48,343 bases of DNA from an uncultured Hyphomicrobiales bacterium (GTDB lineage Bacteria; Pseudomonadota; Alphaproteobacteria; Rhizobiales; Xanthobacteraceae). Below the pieces are notes generated by a model, which worked only from the letters and a program-made list of their open reading frames with translations, searched no databases and was not told the origin of the DNA. The stretch is from assembly GCA_903878085.1 (NCBI GenBank), contig CAIRGJ010000044.1, positions 1 through 48,343 on the forward strand, in the 5' to 3' direction. Each line of letters begins with the position of its first letter. The first letter of the stretch is position 1. Positions 40,452 through 44,401 of this stretch are shown one piece after another. The position numbers were made by a program, and so were the translations under genes.

Positions 40452-41984
40452 ATGAAGGACATTCTCGACAGGCTGGAAGATCGCCGCGCCGATGCGCGGC
40501 TGGGCGGCGGCGAAAAGCGCATCGAGGCCCAGCACAAGCGCGGCAAGCTGACCGCCCGCGAGCGCATTGAACTCCTCCTCGACAAGGGCTCGTTCGAGGA
40601 ATTCGACATGTTCGTCGAGCACCGCTCCATCGACTTCGGCATGGAGAAGCAGAAAATCCCCGGCGACGGCGTCGTCACCGGCTGGGGTACGGTCAACGGC
40701 CGCGTCGTCTATTTGTTCTCCAAGGACTTCACCGTGTTCGGTGGCTCGCTGTCGGAAGCGCACGCGCAGAAAATCATGAAGGTGCAGGACATGGCGATGA
40801 AGGCGCGCTGCCCCGTCATCGGCCTGTTCGACGCCGGCGGCGCCCGCATCCAGGAGGGGGTCGCTGCGCTCGGCGGCTACGGCGAGGTGTTCAAGCGCAA
40901 CGTGCTCGCCTCCGGCGTCATCCCGCAGATCAGCGTCATCATGGGGCCCTGCGCCGGCGGCGACGTCTATTCGCCGGCCATGACCGACTTCATCTTCATG
41001 GTGCGCGATACCAGCTACATGTTCGTCACCGGCCCCGATGTGGTCAAGACCGTCACCAACGAAGTCGTCACCGCGGAGGAACTCGGCGGCGCCAGCGTGC
41101 ACACCACGAAATCCGGCGTCGCCGACGGCGCCTTCGAGAACGACGTCGAGTGCCTGCTGCAGATGCGCCGCCTGATCGACTTCCTGCCGGCCAACAACGA
41201 GGCCGGCGTGCCGCAATGGCCGACGGCGGACGATGCCGACCGCATCGATCCCTCGCTCGACACGCTGATCCCGGACAATCCGAACAAGCCCTACGACATC
41301 AAGGAGCTGATCCACAAAGTCGTGGACGAGGGCGACTTCTTCGAGGTGTCCGCCAAGCACGCCATGAACATCGTCATCGGCTTCGGCCGCATTGCCGGCG
41401 CGACCGTGGGCTTCGTCGCCAACCAGCCGCTGGTGCTGGCCGGCGTGCTCGACAGTGCCGCCTCGCGCAAAGCTGCGCGCTTTGTGCGCTTCTGCGACGC
41501 CTTCTCGATTCCGATCGTCACCTTCGTCGACGTGCCCGGATTCCTGCCCGGCACCGACCAGGAATATGGCGGCCTGATCAAGCACGGCGCCAAGCTGTTG
41601 TTCGCCTATAGCCAGTGCACGGTGCCGCTGGTGACGGTGATCACGCGCAAGGCCTTCGGCGGCGCTTACGACGTGATGGCGTCCAAGCACGTCGGTGGCG
41701 ATTTGAATTACGCCTGGCCGACGGCGCAGATTGCGGTGATGGGCGCCAAGGGCGCGGTCGAGATCATCTTCCGCGCCGACATCGGCGACAAGGATGCGAT
41801 TGCCGCGCGCACCAAGGAATACGAGGACCGCTTCCTGTCGCCCTTCGTCGCCGCCGAGCGCGGCTATATCGACGACGTCATCATGCCGCACTCGACGCGC
41901 AAGCGGCTGGCGCGGGCGCTGGCGATGCTGAAAAACAAGCATGTCGAGATGCCGGGGCGGAAGCACGACAATTTGCCGTTGTGA
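40452..41984 (+). CDS. pccB: Propionyl-CoA carboxylase beta subunit (carboxyltransferase)
   Basis: 510 residues from ATG 40452, the family length; the longer open frame upstream has no similarity. It transfers CO2 from carboxybiotin to propionyl-CoA to form methylmalonyl-CoA. The two crotonase-like halves show [18 protein letters not shown] and [16 protein letters not shown] (N half), then [20 protein letters not shown] and [13 protein letters not shown] (C half). The biotin-carrying alpha subunit is not in the window. The last 46 codons (41847-41984) are the template of two partial copies downstream. Its current 3' end may itself be a replaced allele. Confidence 0.96.
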
Positions 41985-41990
41985 TCTTTA

Positions 41991-42050
41991 CCCTCCCCCT
42001 TGCGGGGAGGGTCGCCCGCCAAAGAGAAGCGAAGGCGGACGGGGTGGGGG
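41991..42050. repeat. GC-rich palindromic repeat directly after pccB
   Basis: CCCTCCCC / GGGGAGGG hairpin (41991-41998 with 42004-42011), then a CCGCC / GGCGG hairpin around AAAGAGAAGCGAA, closed by GGGGTGGGG. The layout resembles the widespread alphaproteobacterial 'CTCCCC-TTGCGGGGAGGG' intergenic repeat. It ends at the start of the DUF4160 gene and may provide its ribosome binding site. Confidence 0.75.
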
Positions 42051-42056
42051 ATGATC

Positions 42057-42293
42057 ATGCCGACCGTTTTACGCTGGGGTCCCTACCGCGCATTTTTCTA
42101 TTCAAATGAGGGTGATGAGCCGGCCCATATCCACGTGCGCGCAGGCGGCAAAGAGGCCAAATTCTGGCTGCACGACCTCACGCTGGCCATCAATGCCGGG
42201 TATCCGGCCCATGAAATGAGCGATATAATTCGTTACCTGAAGCAGAATCGCGAAGCACTATTGAGGGCTTGGCATGAGTATTTTGGAAATTGA
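42057..42293 (+). CDS. DUF4160-domain protein
   Basis: 78 residues from ATG 42057 (42051 is an alternative). The DUF4160 hallmarks are visible: MPTVLRWGPYRAFFYSNEGD, EPAHIHVRAGGKEAKFWL and a C-terminal helical HEYFGN. The HIH motif and acidic residues could bind a metal or nucleic acid, but no activity is established to my knowledge. It overlaps the DUF2442 gene by 20 bases, and the pair travels together in many genomes in a toxin-antitoxin-like layout. It lies between copies 1 and 2 of the pccB end. Confidence 0.88.
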   Translation: MPTVLRWGPYRAFFYSNEGDEPAHIHVRAGGKEAKFWLHDLTLAINAGYPAHEMSDIIRYLKQNREALLRAWHEYFGN

Positions 42294-42522
42294 TGTCGGC
42301 GATCTGCAGGCTCGTTCGGTCGAGTTTACCGCGACCGAACTGGTGGTGACGCTGGCCGACGGCCGTAGGATCGCGACGCCGCTAGCGTGGTATCCGCGGC
42401 TCAAGAACGCATCGGCCACGCAACGCAATAATTTCGAAGTCATGTCGATGGGTATTCACTGGCCCGACCTCGACGAGGACCTCAGCATCGCTGGGATGCT
42501 GAAGGGGCGGCATGCAGTCTAG
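42274..42522 (+). CDS. DUF2442-domain protein
   Basis: 82 residues. The family pattern is clear: VEFTATELVVTLADGRRIAT, PLAWYPRLKNASATQRNNFE, GIHWPDLDEDLSIAGMLKGR. It is the usual downstream partner of DUF4160 and is a candidate antitoxin or DNA-binding partner (inference). The stop is followed after only four bases by the second copy of the pccB 3' end. Confidence 0.88.
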   Translation: MSILEIDVGDLQARSVEFTATELVVTLADGRRIATPLAWYPRLKNASATQRNNFEVMSMGIHWPDLDEDLSIAGMLKGRHAV

Positions 42523-42526
42523 TTAT

Positions 42527-42664
42527 GTCGCCGCCGAGCGCGGCTATATCGACGACGTCATCATGCCGCACTCGACGCGCAAGCGGCTGGCGCGGGCACT
42601 GGCGATGCTGAAGAACAAGCATGTCGAGATGCCGGGGCGGAAACACGACAATTTGCCGTTATAG
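42527..42664 (+). pseudogene. pccB 3'-end fragment, copy 2
   Basis: 138 bases aligning without gaps to the last 138 bases of pccB (offset exactly 680). There are six differences: four synonymous third-position changes, plus TGA replaced by TAG (two bases). The encoded 45 residues ([20 protein letters not shown]...) are identical to PccB. There is no start codon or upstream frame, so it is not expressed as PccB. Homology stops at the stop codon. Confidence 0.93.
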
Positions 42665-42735
42665 CCCCCGCCCGTCTTGAGGGCACGATCATCCTGTTGT
42701 ATCGTCAGGGTTGTCAAGCTCGCGGGGGGGGCGCC

Positions 42736-42957
42736 ATGAATCTGCCATTCAATCTTACTGCCGTTTTGAAGGTGGCTTCCCTGCTAGCGGCCGCAACGCT
42801 GCTGTCCGGCCAATCGTCGTTGACAGACTCACTCAAGGAGGGCGTCAGACCGCACGGCGTCGGTTTGTTCTCCAAGGGGTTCGACAGCAAGAAGTCCATC
42901 ATCTTGGATCGATGCTTTGACATTCCGCGGCCGAGCGACTGCGATGTCAAAAAATAG
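42736..42957 (+). CDS. Small protein with N-terminal signal or membrane segment, unknown
   Basis: 73 residues (MNLPFNLTAVLKVASLLAAA...). The N-terminal ~25 residues are hydrophobic and resemble a signal peptide or anchor. The rest has a Cys pair (LDRCFDIPRPSDCDVKK). It overlaps the next gene by 14 bases, suggesting a two-gene unit. A G-rich stretch precedes the ATG. Family not recognised. Confidence 0.55.
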   Translation: MNLPFNLTAVLKVASLLAAATLLSGQSSLTDSLKEGVRPHGVGLFSKGFDSKKSIILDRCFDIPRPSDCDVKK

Positions 42958-43558
42958 CCGCGCGCGGACCAGGAATGGCGGCGGGACAGAACCTGTGACC
43001 GGGACCGAAACTGAAACGGCAAAGCGCGATGACCCGCTCGGGCGGGTTCTGGGATATTGCGTCGCCGTCGTCGCGATTCTCGGCATCCCCTCGGGACTCT
43101 ACGGATATTATGCCGGCGAGCACGCCAAACGCGTGCAGACAACGTTCGAATTCTACAAGGACTTCAGAACCGATAATTTTCAGAAAAAATATCAGGCGAT
43201 GACCAATCGCGCTGACGCCAAGGCGGACATCATCAAGGGTCTGATGGATAAGTATCGCGGCAACCCGGAGGAGCGCGACCGCCAGGTTCTCGAAGCGGTG
43301 AAAGGCCTGATTGCCACTGAAGACGGATTAAAGAACACTTCCGAAGTGCTGCTTTTCTTCGACGTGCTGGCAACATGCGTCAACACCTCGCTCTGCGACC
43401 GGAACGCCGCCGTCACGCTATTCAAGTTGCCGGCGCTCGAATTTGCCTCGGCCTACGGTCCCTACATCATGCACATTCGCTATGCCTATGGGAACGAGAC
43501 GTTCGGTACCGGCCTATTCCAGACCCGCGCCATGGAAACCGAATGGTCGATATTCTAG
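42944..43558 (+). CDS. Membrane-anchored protein of unknown function
   Basis: 204 residues from ATG 42944. A Thr/Glu/Arg-rich cytoplasmic N-terminus is followed by one transmembrane helix (~37-62, VLGYCVAVVAILGIPSGLYGYY). A helical domain comes next (FEFYKDFRTDNFQKKYQAM ... VLLFFDVLATCVNTSLCDRN). It vaguely resembles DUF4760-type one-helix proteins, but this is not secure. It sits between pccB-end copies 2 and 3, and its stop is 17 bases before copy 3. Confidence 0.7.
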   Translation: MSKNSRARTRNGGGTEPVTGTETETAKRDDPLGRVLGYCVAVVAILGIPSGLYGYYAGEHAKRVQTTFEFYKDFRTDNFQKKYQAMTNRADAKADIIKGLMDKYRGNPEERDRQVLEAVKGLIATEDGLKNTSEVLLFFDVLATCVNTSLCDRNAAVTLFKLPALEFASAYGPYIMHIRYAYGNETFGTGLFQTRAMETEWSIF

Positions 43559-43575
43559 TTTCTATCATGCTGTCG

Positions 43576-43674
43576 CCGCATTCGACCCGCCGCCGGCTCG
43601 CCCGCGCGCTGGCGATGCTCAAGAACAAGCATGTCGAGATGCCGGGGCGAAAGCACGACAATTTGCCGCTCTAA
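43576..43674 (+). pseudogene. pccB 3'-end fragment, copy 3
   Basis: 99 bases encoding [20 protein letters not shown] and on to NLPL plus stop. It aligns without gaps to the last 33 codons of pccB. There are 14 base differences, yet only one residue changes (Lys to Arg); the stop is TAA. It is more diverged than copy 2. The frame joins an out-of-frame shadow of the preceding gene, so no PccB peptide is expected. Confidence 0.92.
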
Positions 43675-43772: not shown

Positions 43773-44174
43773 TCACAACTTCCTCACCTCAATCCCCTTC
43801 ATCTTTTTTGCTGCGGCGATGAGTCTCGCGTCCGCCGTGATCAGCGGGCAGCGCTCACGCTCGGCCAGCGCCAGATAGAAGCAGTCGTAGATGGGGTGGT
43901 CCAACTCGATGGCGAGTTCAAGCGCGCGGCCGCGCAAATCGGTGTCCGGCACCAGTTCATGGAACGGCAGCAGGGAGCGTTGCAGCGCGGCCAGCGCATC
44001 GTCGCGCGTCGCGTCGCCGCGCCGGACGGCCTTCCATAGTGCGCTGCCGATCTCGGAGGCGACCAGCGTCGGGGCGATCAGTCTTGGTTCGGTTTTCAGC
44101 GCGGTGGCGCGGTCGGAGCCTTCCTGCGGCAGAACCCACAGCGCGGCGACGCTGGCATCGACGACGACGGTCAC
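43773..44174 (-). CDS. vapC: PIN-domain toxin, VapC type
   Basis: 133 residues. The PIN acidic residues are Asp6 (VVVDASV), Glu41 (VASEIGSALWK), Asp97 (YDCFYLALAE) and Asp115 (ITADARL). VapC toxins are Mg-dependent RNases that cut tRNA or rRNA. It overlaps the antitoxin gene by four bases and is translated after it. Confidence 0.92.
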   Translation of the reverse strand: MTVVVDASVAALWVLPQEGSDRATALKTEPRLIAPTLVASEIGSALWKAVRRGDATRDDALAALQRSLLPFHELVPDTDLRGRALELAIELDHPIYDCFYLALAERERCPLITADARLIAAAKKMKGIEVRKL

Positions 44175-44401
44175 CGGCTGTCGCGGTCGGCGCGAATGTC
44201 GGCGGTCGAATCCCCGGACACCTTGCCGATCTTGTTGCGAATGGCGTCGACCGCCGCCCAGGCTTCCGCTTTGCTGGGCTTAACGTATGCGGCAATCGCC
44301 TCGCGCGCCGTCTCGTTGACCGAAGCGCCTTTCGCTTTGGCCTTTTCCTTCAGCCGGCGGGCGGTGTCGTCGTCGAGGTTGCGAACCAGAATGTCGACCA
44401 T
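44171..44401 (-). CDS. vapB: Ribbon-helix-helix antitoxin, FitA/VapB type
   Basis: 76 residues. The ribbon-helix-helix lies at the N-terminus (VDILVRNLDDDTARRLKEKA, GASVNETAREAI). The C-terminal part (IRNKIGKVSGDSTADIRADR) should wrap the toxin. First gene of the pair and probable autorepressor through the repeats just upstream. Confidence 0.9.
   Translation of the reverse strand: MVDILVRNLDDDTARRLKEKAKAKGASVNETAREAIAAYVKPSKAEAWAAVDAIRNKIGKVSGDSTADIRADRDSR

Follow-up and report, generated by a model that had tools for sequence, protein, structure and literature searches.

It is not yet understood how small defence and toxin-antitoxin-like genes travel in the absence of a mobile element, and a 48,343-nt contig of an uncultured Hyphomicrobiales bacterium (GCA_903878085.1, CAIRGJ010000044.1; here called the window, meaning the whole stretch of DNA analysed) raises it in a particular form. 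Why does the 3' end of a conserved carboxylase gene, pccB, occur there three times in a row, with two unrelated gene pairs between the copies? We consider it probable, at roughly 0.6, that the array grew by stepwise accretion without an integrase, through recombination at the pccB 3' end in which each newcomer would have imported a donor's gene end.

Anatomy of the array and divergence of its copies

The intact gene, some plasmid relatives of which are annotated as acyl-CoA carboxylase subunit beta, is followed by two displaced copies of its end (Table 1). Alignment confirmed the positions and difference counts claimed for these copies in the original prediction, together with their three stop codons and the mutual unrelatedness of the sequences that follow them. 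Chance is excluded as a source of the repeats (E 7e-61 for copy 2 and 2e-28 for copy 3 in the organism's own genome), and among the best 40 of 167 first-look candidates that were scored, only these three places matched at E <=0.001. The last cargo ORF before copy 2 stops at 42522 and the one before copy 3 at 43558, 4 and 17 bases ahead of the next copy, as had been stated; a profile of pccB ends, however, lets copy 3 begin near 43564, which would shorten the second gap from 17 to about 5 bases. Cargo 2a has no accepted Pfam family, and cargo 2b shows 68% DNA identity in the alignment with a relative, G033. Beyond the array, the flank together with the NHL-repeat gene aligns with the flank that follows the array of another relative, G032 (76.7% over 1667 columns).

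Table 1. Features of the pccB array, by position in the window
Feature	Position	Strand	Remarks
pccB-like acyl-CoA carboxylase beta subunit, intact, 510 aa	40452..41984	+	Pfam Carboxyl_trans, E 1.3e-194
Block of strongest conservation in the pccB end	41846..41890	+	Its start (about -139) is the commonest left fragment boundary
Copy 1, final 138 nt of the present pccB, stop TGA	41847..41984	+	
Cargo 1a, DUF4160 protein	42051..42293	+	Pfam PF13711, E 1e-18 (on 42060-42290)
Cargo 1b, DUF2442 protein	42274..42522	+	Pfam PF10387, E 9e-22
Copy 2, displaced pccB end, 138 nt, stop TAG	42527..42664	+	6/138 differences from copy 1
Leader of the cargo 2 operon	42665..42735	+	Alignable with the leader after the decayed pccB-end remnant of G033
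Cargo 2a, small ORF, 73 aa	42736..42957	+	Similar in size and ending to a G033 ORF
Cargo 2b, DUF4760-like	42947..43558	+	PF15956, E 3e-4, 21.4 bits, below the cut-off of 25
Copy 3, older displaced pccB end, 99 nt, stop TAA	43576..43674	+	14/99 differences from copy 1
Flank past the array, encoding PIN-domain and FitA-like RHH proteins	43773..44401	-	PIN, E 1e-13; FitA-like_RHH, E 5e-10

Direct repeats of a single gene end could also be left if the pccB region had simply been duplicated in tandem and then lost parts by deletion. We give this explanation hardly any weight, since the cargo differs between the repeats, different species hold different cargo, and no cargo repeat appears among the 20 direct-repeat families listed.

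The copies have diverged as functional gene ends. Copies 1 and 2 differ only synonymously, the peptide of copy 2 being identical to that of pccB, and copies 1 and 3 differ by 10 synonymous codons and one K-to-R replacement. Simulated local duplication followed by neutral decay gave patterns like that of copy 2 with P 5e-4 and like that of copy 3 with P 5e-5, in a model without gene conversion between copies, a process which could weaken the synonymous argument. Because the differences are almost wholly synonymous, the copies are not products of local decay, and for the window we rejected local duplication with neutral decay, which also fails to account for the differing stop types. Identity of copy 3 to its own pccB (85.9%) does not exceed that to the pccB of three other species (87.9%). 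Copies 1 and 2 share 95.7% identity, every other pccB end compared reaching at most 90.6%; these two are thus nearest each other, and no donor genome was found among the ends compared. When copy 1 was tested as a possible foreign mosaic, neither a clear donor nor the position of the left crossover emerged. One locus, L094, has a pccB end sharing 89.1% identity with copy 1.

Insertion with long target duplication has been described as cargo lying between long direct repeats of its target, linked to restriction-modification genes and proposed as a mechanism of gene mobility (Nobusato et al., 2000; PMC1643837, PMC3031569). As far as these accounts go, the pccB arrays resemble it in that direct target repeats flank the cargo, and differ in that the target is repeatedly the 3' end of one conserved gene, stacked and found in several genera. 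Applied to pccB, such an event would capture cargo by template switching or at a staggered break and double the host's own end, with no donor pccB involved. Most fragments are indeed nearest to the host's own pccB end, as copies 1 and 2 are to each other, and the same left boundary recurs in several genera. The window repeats, however, differ in the manner of functional alleles, almost only synonymously and in stop type, and thus do not stem from one target copy, and copy 3 lies as near to other species as to its own gene; we therefore regard this origin as improbable. Elsewhere than in the window, the codon pattern is weak or absent as evidence of import: nonsynonymous codons make up 3/7 and 1/4 in the fragments of G042, 4/10 in G032, 7/18 in G009, 5/16 in G020 and 10/15 in G036, and the fragment of G021 carries indels.

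This decay in G009, G020, G036 and G021 also bears on whether displaced ends are kept for a role in the cargo, as terminator, translational coupler, 3' RNA or small peptide. Several cargo stops are overlapped or adjoined by start codons lying in frame with pccB, and the peptide of copy 2 is preserved, both of which favour such a role; nevertheless, DUF2442 genes lie beside pccB without a fragment, in the bases read, in G014, G203, G093, G118 and G222, and together with the decay this makes retention for function very improbable.

Displaced ends downstream of pccB in relatives

Sequence comparisons support the pccB 3' end as a recurrent insertion hot spot in soil bacteria related to Pseudolabrys, as had been predicted. 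Genes in the compared regions were called with a custom script. Strong fragments (E <1e-5) follow an intact pccB in 8/36 regions of the genus, a count that leaves out the decayed remnant of G033, and enclose varied cargo; relatives with other cargo between pccB and a displaced end, anticipated by the original prediction, were thus found. A profile of 41 pccB ends, searched against the 340 kb downstream of the same genes, gave 11 matches with E <1e-5, all on the coding strand; seven weak matches (E 0.0019-0.43), four on the coding strand and three on the opposite one, were not counted. All 11 strong fragments end with a stop codon at the pccB stop position, and in eight of them the stop type differs from that of the own gene.

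Other genes behaved differently. In a matched test within the same regions (genes of >=100 aa, score >=40, >=1 kb downstream; pccB regions G006, G022, G036 and G039 left out), 7/32 pccB genes were positive vs 1/256 other genes (Fisher 8e-7). Likewise, a nearby second pccB end was present in 7/39 genomes (three of the 39 had only weak short matches), whereas four other gene ends gave 0/39, 0/41, 1/39 and 0/42 (1/161 in all; Fisher 5e-5 vs pccB), with a second partial match in G017, on another contig, not counted as nearby. Relatives therefore do not all carry a single pccB end and the window copies do not show neutral divergence, the two observations from which a simple local duplication was to be concluded.

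Further afield, a second end occurred in one of three genomes of the genus of G054, and 20 further regions of the family outside Bradyrhizobium yielded a 24-nt end in G213 and an internal pccB piece in G120, a weak 26-nt match in G293 not being counted; as the family searches scored two candidates per genome, the matches listed are a lower bound and no census. Across the order, 80 named loci were returned, 79 were readable to the stop and 78 had >=100 nt downstream; none of the 78, L117 of the window's genus included, bore a fragment reaching the stop, and equal strength across the order was rejected. REP-like palindromes within 110 nt of the stop were commoner at pccB (7/36) than at other genes (4/307).

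Layering, joints and the proposed route

Stepwise growth, with copy 3 older than copy 2 as predicted, is borne out by G033, which has the window's older layer beneath a different newer cargo. The leader of cargo 2 follows a pccB end in both the window (G000) and G033, with an alignment score of 52 against 36 for the best of 500 shuffles. The arrangement of an empty site is likewise visible: in G010 the displaced end occupies the place that intact pccB holds in G003, G031, G037 and G041, and the next gene, which we take to be tricarboxylate-transporter-like, starts 89 nt past the displaced stop in G010 and 87-114 nt past the intact stop in the other four. The predicted empty site was found in this form, but not as a relative whose own end matches copy 2 or copy 3; with one genome sampled per species, empty sites at strain level stay hidden.

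Right joints are abrupt. As far as the joint, the G010 cargo aligns with G005 (88.6% over 711 columns); the next gene is cut there after fewer than 20 codons, and a gene is also cut at copy 2 of G042; precise cassette borders were accordingly rejected as a rule. By eye, the joints of G010 and G021 share only a few bases with the parent-like sequence. Fragment starts range from about -199 to -24 relative to the gene's end and cluster near -138 and -112, those away from -138 lying at about -199, -112, -110, -105, -88, -50 and -24; this is the variable joint position expected of homology-facilitated illegitimate recombination. In most arrays the start lies close to a cargo stop, at about -14 to +17 nt from it.

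We propose that DNA of a relative, carrying its own pccB end and different downstream genes, would recombine homologously with the resident pccB on the left, while the right end would close inside the resident pccB end. The gene would thereby receive the donor end with the cargo next to it, and the resident's former end would be pushed downstream as a scar. Founding joints were probably illegitimate, of the homology-facilitated kind, given the scatter of starts and the occasional truncation of cargo genes. An existing scar could then act as a right homology arm, so that cargo might reach other pccB genes by double crossover, and recombination between the direct repeats could remove it again. 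In the window, two rounds would suffice, the DUF4760-like cargo arriving first (leaving copy 3) and the DUF4160/DUF2442 pair second (leaving copy 2).

A close parallel is offered by the effector-immunity arrays of the Vibrio cholerae T6SS and Rhs orphans, described as products of one-sided homology in which the old 3' region is shifted downstream and arrays build up stepwise, with homology-facilitated illegitimate recombination proposed as the mechanism (Kirchberger et al., 2017; PMC5361080). On that description, the displaced 3' end and the stepwise arrays are common to both cases, as would be the incoming module; in the T6SS and Rhs arrays, though, the 3' domain of the landing gene is itself the selected, changing part, whereas here the landing gene encodes an enzyme that is conserved and has no relation to the cargo.

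The accretion process is not confined to pccB. Displaced ends were found in controls at three other genes, rarA (G010), a nucleotidyltransferase-like gene (G042) and an NHL-repeat gene (G034), and pccB as the sole site was rejected; at rarA and the nucleotidyltransferase-like gene the anatomy is the same as at pccB, with unrelated ends. A mirrored test at 5' ends in G042 (911 genes) returned nine matches, including two short repeats (28 and 48 columns) located at a gene start or close to it, and does not discriminate between models.

DUF2442 genes adjoin a pccB-end fragment, which begins just after their stop, in G000, G054, G263, G136 and, decayed, G196, representing four genera; G263, G136 and G196 were found by querying with the cassette itself and enter no rate. 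The fragments adjoining DUF4160/DUF2442 begin close to where the best-conserved block of the gene end starts, and the four measured (G196 was not) are closest, among 12 ends, to the host's own or own-genus end. Fragments next to three other cargo types also start near -134 to -139 (G042 copy 3, G032 and G033), and a common start near -138 with four cargo types, like the closeness of starts to cargo stops, is tighter than random illegitimate joints predict. Base conservation across 139 pccB ends peaks in 30-nt windows whose starts run from -141 to -127, with a mean base frequency of 0.935-0.938 against 0.831 for the median window.

Genomic islands at the 3' ends of tRNA or protein genes bring DNA that restores the gene end and displaces the old one. 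A comparable event at pccB would have a recombinase acting in trans join small circular cassettes at the conserved block (about -139 to -95), leaving the displaced end as the attR side, as in integrons or such islands; the recurrent boundary, its position on the most conserved block and the compact cargo, mostly adjoining the fragment, fit this. Yet the remaining starts lie elsewhere, from about -199 to -24, genes are cut at two joints, unrelated gene ends show like anatomy, and no integrase was recognised between pccB and the fragments, where ORFs were inspected by eye and selected proteins scanned. Site-specific insertion of this kind is consequently unlikely, and the likeness to tRNA-end integration, drawn in the original prediction, holds for the outcome only, as the pccB cargo has no recognised integrase and apparently no single fixed crossover position. 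Tentatively, a family-wide cassette system lacking its own integrase is conceivable, in which cargo units would carry a pccB 3' arm from the conserved 30-45-nt block as attachment site, move between genera, stack and leave pccB functional, the block serving in effect as an att site for host recombination or a trans-acting enzyme.

Cargo genes and their proposed transfer

Cargo measures about 0.3-3.7 kb, and its base composition marks it as foreign: GC is low in the first kb after pccB in 12/33 regions vs 0/174 control windows. A Pfam scan of 19 proteins chosen from the DNA that follows pccB in regions other than the window, 15 of them also examined with PADLOC, recovered SIR2_2, Abi_alpha (twice), an OLD-like protein, DUF4145 with a PD-T7-4 match, PIN, RHH and GIY-YIG, while 8/19 had no Pfam family at E 0.01. 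Some of the cargo thus looks defence-like by domain content, in matches that come from selected proteins without a background rate. The DUF4160/DUF2442 pair had Pfam domain matches and no PADLOC match; from these domains we take it to be a putative toxin-antitoxin pair, and the benefit of the cargo may possibly lie in defence or toxin-antitoxin functions.

Core defence hotspots of Pseudomonas aeruginosa likewise hold variable, defence-bearing cargo beside core genes, and at some of the sites no mobile genes were detectable; its authors suggest that flanking homology mediates the transfer, and how such sites arise is described as remaining to be found (PMC10250203). Compared with the hotspots as presented in that report, the pccB cargo is small, its core-gene pad lies on one side, and the displaced gene end orders the insertions. 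This scar marks each joint and could serve as a rough clock, from pristine through drifting copies to a 24-nt stub; a gene 3' end repeated downstream and ending at a stop would be a genome-wide signature of such insertions. No report of pccB as an integration site was found in the open-licence literature.

For delivery, GTA_TIM was not found in the organism's own genome, and DprA and ComEC were; as these two were matched in most control genomes too (11/14 and 10/14, respectively), they do not settle the route. An ORF that is presumably transposase-like lies 2.1 kb past pccB in G040, a genome with no fragment.

Divergence of the stacked pccB ends

In the window, the carboxylase gene pccB, the presumed landing site, is followed by two displaced copies of its own 3' end, here called fragments. 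The recurring ends of the original prediction, with the lengths and differences tabulated below, three stop codons (TGA, TAG, and TAA), and diverging sequence past each stop, were re-measured and gave the same values. The GC content is 0.648 in pccB versus 0.579 and 0.571 in the cargo intervals, and the search of the same genome listed no pccB-end copy beyond these three.

Features of the pccB array and of displaced ends elsewhere
Genome	Feature	Position	Remarks
Window	pccB (copy 1 = its current 3' end)	40452-41984	Intact
Window	Place of REP-like palindrome	41985-42050
Window	Cargo 1	Between copies 1 and 2	DUF4160 and DUF2442 (Pfam)
Window	Copy 2, last 138 nt of pccB	42527-42664	6 differences
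Window	Cargo 2	Between copies 2 and 3	Small ORF and DUF4760-like protein (match below Pfam cut-off)
Window	Copy 3, last 99 nt of pccB	43576-43674	14 differences
G042	Cargo		SIR2-like gene, cut gene (presumably GFA-like), small ORF
G032	Cargo		RHH and PIN
G020, G036, G033	Cargo		One common type (gene presumably cupin-like)
G021	Cargo		Presumably EamA-like transporter
G010	Cargo		Abi_alpha and others
G009	Cargo		No clear ORF
G042	Gene with displaced end (L176)	C1:40001-60000; gene ~57516, minus	Presumably guanylyltransferase-like/nucleotidyltransferase-like
G010	rarA (L254)	C25:96500-102500, minus	Displaced end

Copy 2 differs from copy 1 in 5 of 46 codons, every one synonymously, stop included, while copy 3 differs from copy 1 in 11 and from copy 2 in 12 of 33 codons, with one K to R change in each comparison. 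When neutral drift beside a constrained gene was simulated in a model that omits gene conversion (20,000 runs per copy), such a pattern together with a changed, valid stop arose at P 5e-4 and 5e-5; in these terms, the synonymous pattern and the valid stops rule out local decay as the origin of the window copies. Copy 3 shares 85.9% identity with the pccB of its own genome and 87.9% with G031, G008, and G005. The codon pattern, the simulation, and the copy 3 identities together argue that the three copies diverged while serving as functional gene ends. Elsewhere, the nonsynonymous share of differing codons is 1/4 in G042 copy 3, 4/10 in G032, 7/18 in G009, 5/16 in G020, and 10/15 in G036, and 3/7 in G042 copy 2, all three of the latter at the joint between cargo and fragment. 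Such a mixed picture is expected of scars of different age and is by itself no evidence of import.

Recurrence in relatives and history of the site

Among 43 genomes of the genus, which is related to Pseudolabrys, 39 gave any match (weak and short only in G017, G027, and G030), and in seven of these 39 the first end has a second one close by (G000, the genome of the window, and G009, G010, G020, G021, G032, and G042). BLAST with each genome's own end and a profile detected strong fragments past pccB in eight of the 36 genus regions (three of the 36 have <1 kb downstream of the gene); these are the same seven and G036, and a further strong fragment occurs in G054, from another genus. All 11 strong matches lie on the coding strand, and each ends with a stop codon where pccB has its own; in eight, the stop differs in type from that of the own gene.

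Applied alike to all genes of these regions, the test flagged 7 of 32 pccB genes versus 1 of 256 others (Fisher 8e-7). For four other conserved genes, a nearby second copy of the 138-nt end was found in 0/39, 0/41, 1/39, and 0/42 genomes (pooled, 1/161 versus 7/39 for pccB; Fisher 5e-5). Across 1.2 Mb of G042, the gene end is repeated ≤5 kb downstream in 6 of 1089 genes; by extent, four resemble gene-family repeats, one repeat is 39 nt, and one is a clear displaced end (159 nt, 98%, 3.7 kb downstream, past a 980-aa glycine-rich ORF). The rarA gene of G010 shows the full arrangement: an HNH protein carrying homing-endonuclease-associated repeats comes next, and beyond it the last 101 nt of rarA recur at 92% and end at the rarA stop. 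Given these controls and both cases, the process producing displaced ends is general, and pccB is a hot spot for it.

The original prediction envisaged stepwise accretion, in which an incoming pccB end plus cargo restores the gene and pushes the former end downstream. G033 retains a 41-nt pccB-end remnant (equally good in 0/1000 shuffles and 0/98 other windows), and the leader following it aligns with the cargo 2 leader of the window (score 52 versus 36, the best of 500 shuffles). Above this common leader layer, the window carries DUF4160/DUF2442 and G033 the cupin-like gene, so that a common older layer lies under different newer ones, as accretion requires. Past pccB, G033 and G036 agree over 576 bp (90.6%) and diverge where the cupin-like gene ends, and G000 and G032 have the flank beyond the array in common. 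In G010, the gene after the array, which we take to be tricarboxylate-transporter-like, starts 89 nt past the displaced stop, and in G003, G031, G037, and G041 it starts 87, 107, 114, and 114 nt past the intact pccB stop; the intergenic DNA itself gave no clear alignment. Up to the joint, at which the following gene is truncated, the cargo of G010 aligns with G005 over 711 columns (88.6%).

A REP-like palindrome lies ≤110 nt past the pccB stop in 7/36 genus regions versus 4/307 other genes. L234 (G120) carries an internal pccB piece (-220 to -108, counted back from the 3' end; 96%) at +1488 to +1600, without the terminal part and with pccB intact upstream. In L077 (G034), a gene whose 3' part is NHL-repeat-like has a second copy of its end (111 nt, 85%) lying 2.6 kb downstream. 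L094, a contig of a MAG titled Rhodocyclales, encodes a pccB protein with 96% identity to that of the window across 114 residues, which may reflect a binning mix-up.

Composition of the cargo

The cargo is foreign in composition and partly defence-like. GC is ≤0.56, a line chosen after the interval values had been seen, in the first kb after pccB in 12/33 genus regions versus 0/174 windows >3 kb downstream (Fisher 4e-11). Nineteen proteins 3' of pccB, picked as low-GC or fragment-linked ORFs and hence a description and not an enrichment test, include SIR2_2 (G042), Abi_alpha (G010 and G040), an OLD-like ATPase with TOPRIM (G013), DUF4145 with a PD-T7-4 match (G005), GIY-YIG (G029), and PIN and RHH (G032); eight of the 19 have no Pfam family at E 0.01. 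PADLOC returned no match for the four cargo proteins of the window, and the cupin-like and EamA-like genes are plainly not defence. In G040 (L083), an ORF transposase-like by eye lies ~2.1 kb after pccB, beyond the Abi_alpha protein, and no pccB fragment was found near it. In G020, G021, and G009 (L069, L070, and L061), the predicted cargo frame stops at the TGA in ACGTGAT of the fragment, at about -112, so the cargo may take its stop codon from the fragment; in G009, the ORF is short and doubtful.

DUF2442 cargo across genera and a probable mechanism of insertion

Among the matches listed in a family search, a query of DUF2442 plus copy 2 aligns across the joint in G054, G263, and G136, and in G196 the alignment reaches base 323 of the 391-base query; these represent three genera other than that of the window. 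Intact pccB lies directly upstream in the first three, while in G196 it matches as two overlapping pieces and the fragment is decayed. In G093, G118, G222, G014, and G203, DUF2442 adjoins pccB and the bases read contain no fragment; it lies away from pccB in stretches of G210 and G183 and in one G121 contig. The fragment starts at or beside -138 in G263 and G136, like that of the window, and similarity in G054 begins near -129. Over 12 ends compared, fragments match the end of their host or its genus at 95.7% (G000), 89.9% (G136), 87.7-88.4% (G263), and 86.8% (G054), above the 71-79% among the DUF2442-linked fragments themselves. Pure target duplication explains why fragments resemble the host end, but it leaves the synonymous divergence in the window unexplained. 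The sequences suggest either repeated entry of the same cargo at the same point or replacement of the fragment by end recombination with the boundary kept, the latter fitting a right homology arm.

The best-supported mechanism is recombination anchored on pccB, in which the gene side would arise by homologous recombination and the founding joints by illegitimate recombination, the displaced end possibly aiding later movement of cargo. It accounts for the restored pccB, displaced ends, layer order, variable starts, cut genes at some joints, and one cargo in several genera, and does not fully explain why fragments begin so close to cargo stops or why four cargo types share the cluster near -138. 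These two features would follow from a site-specific enzyme acting in trans, which accounts neither for the other fragment starts nor for the rarA case. Similar outcomes are described for insertion with long target duplication (PMC1643837, PMC3031569), core defence hotspots (PMC10250203), and the stepwise displacement of 3' ends at T6SS and Rhs loci (PMC5361080); a search of mainly open-access literature turned up no case that unites a conserved enzyme gene as landing pad with stacked allelic scars and cross-genus cargo. Across 139 pccB ends, conservation in 30-nt windows peaks in those beginning at -141 to -127, where the boundary lies, a coincidence noticed after the fact.
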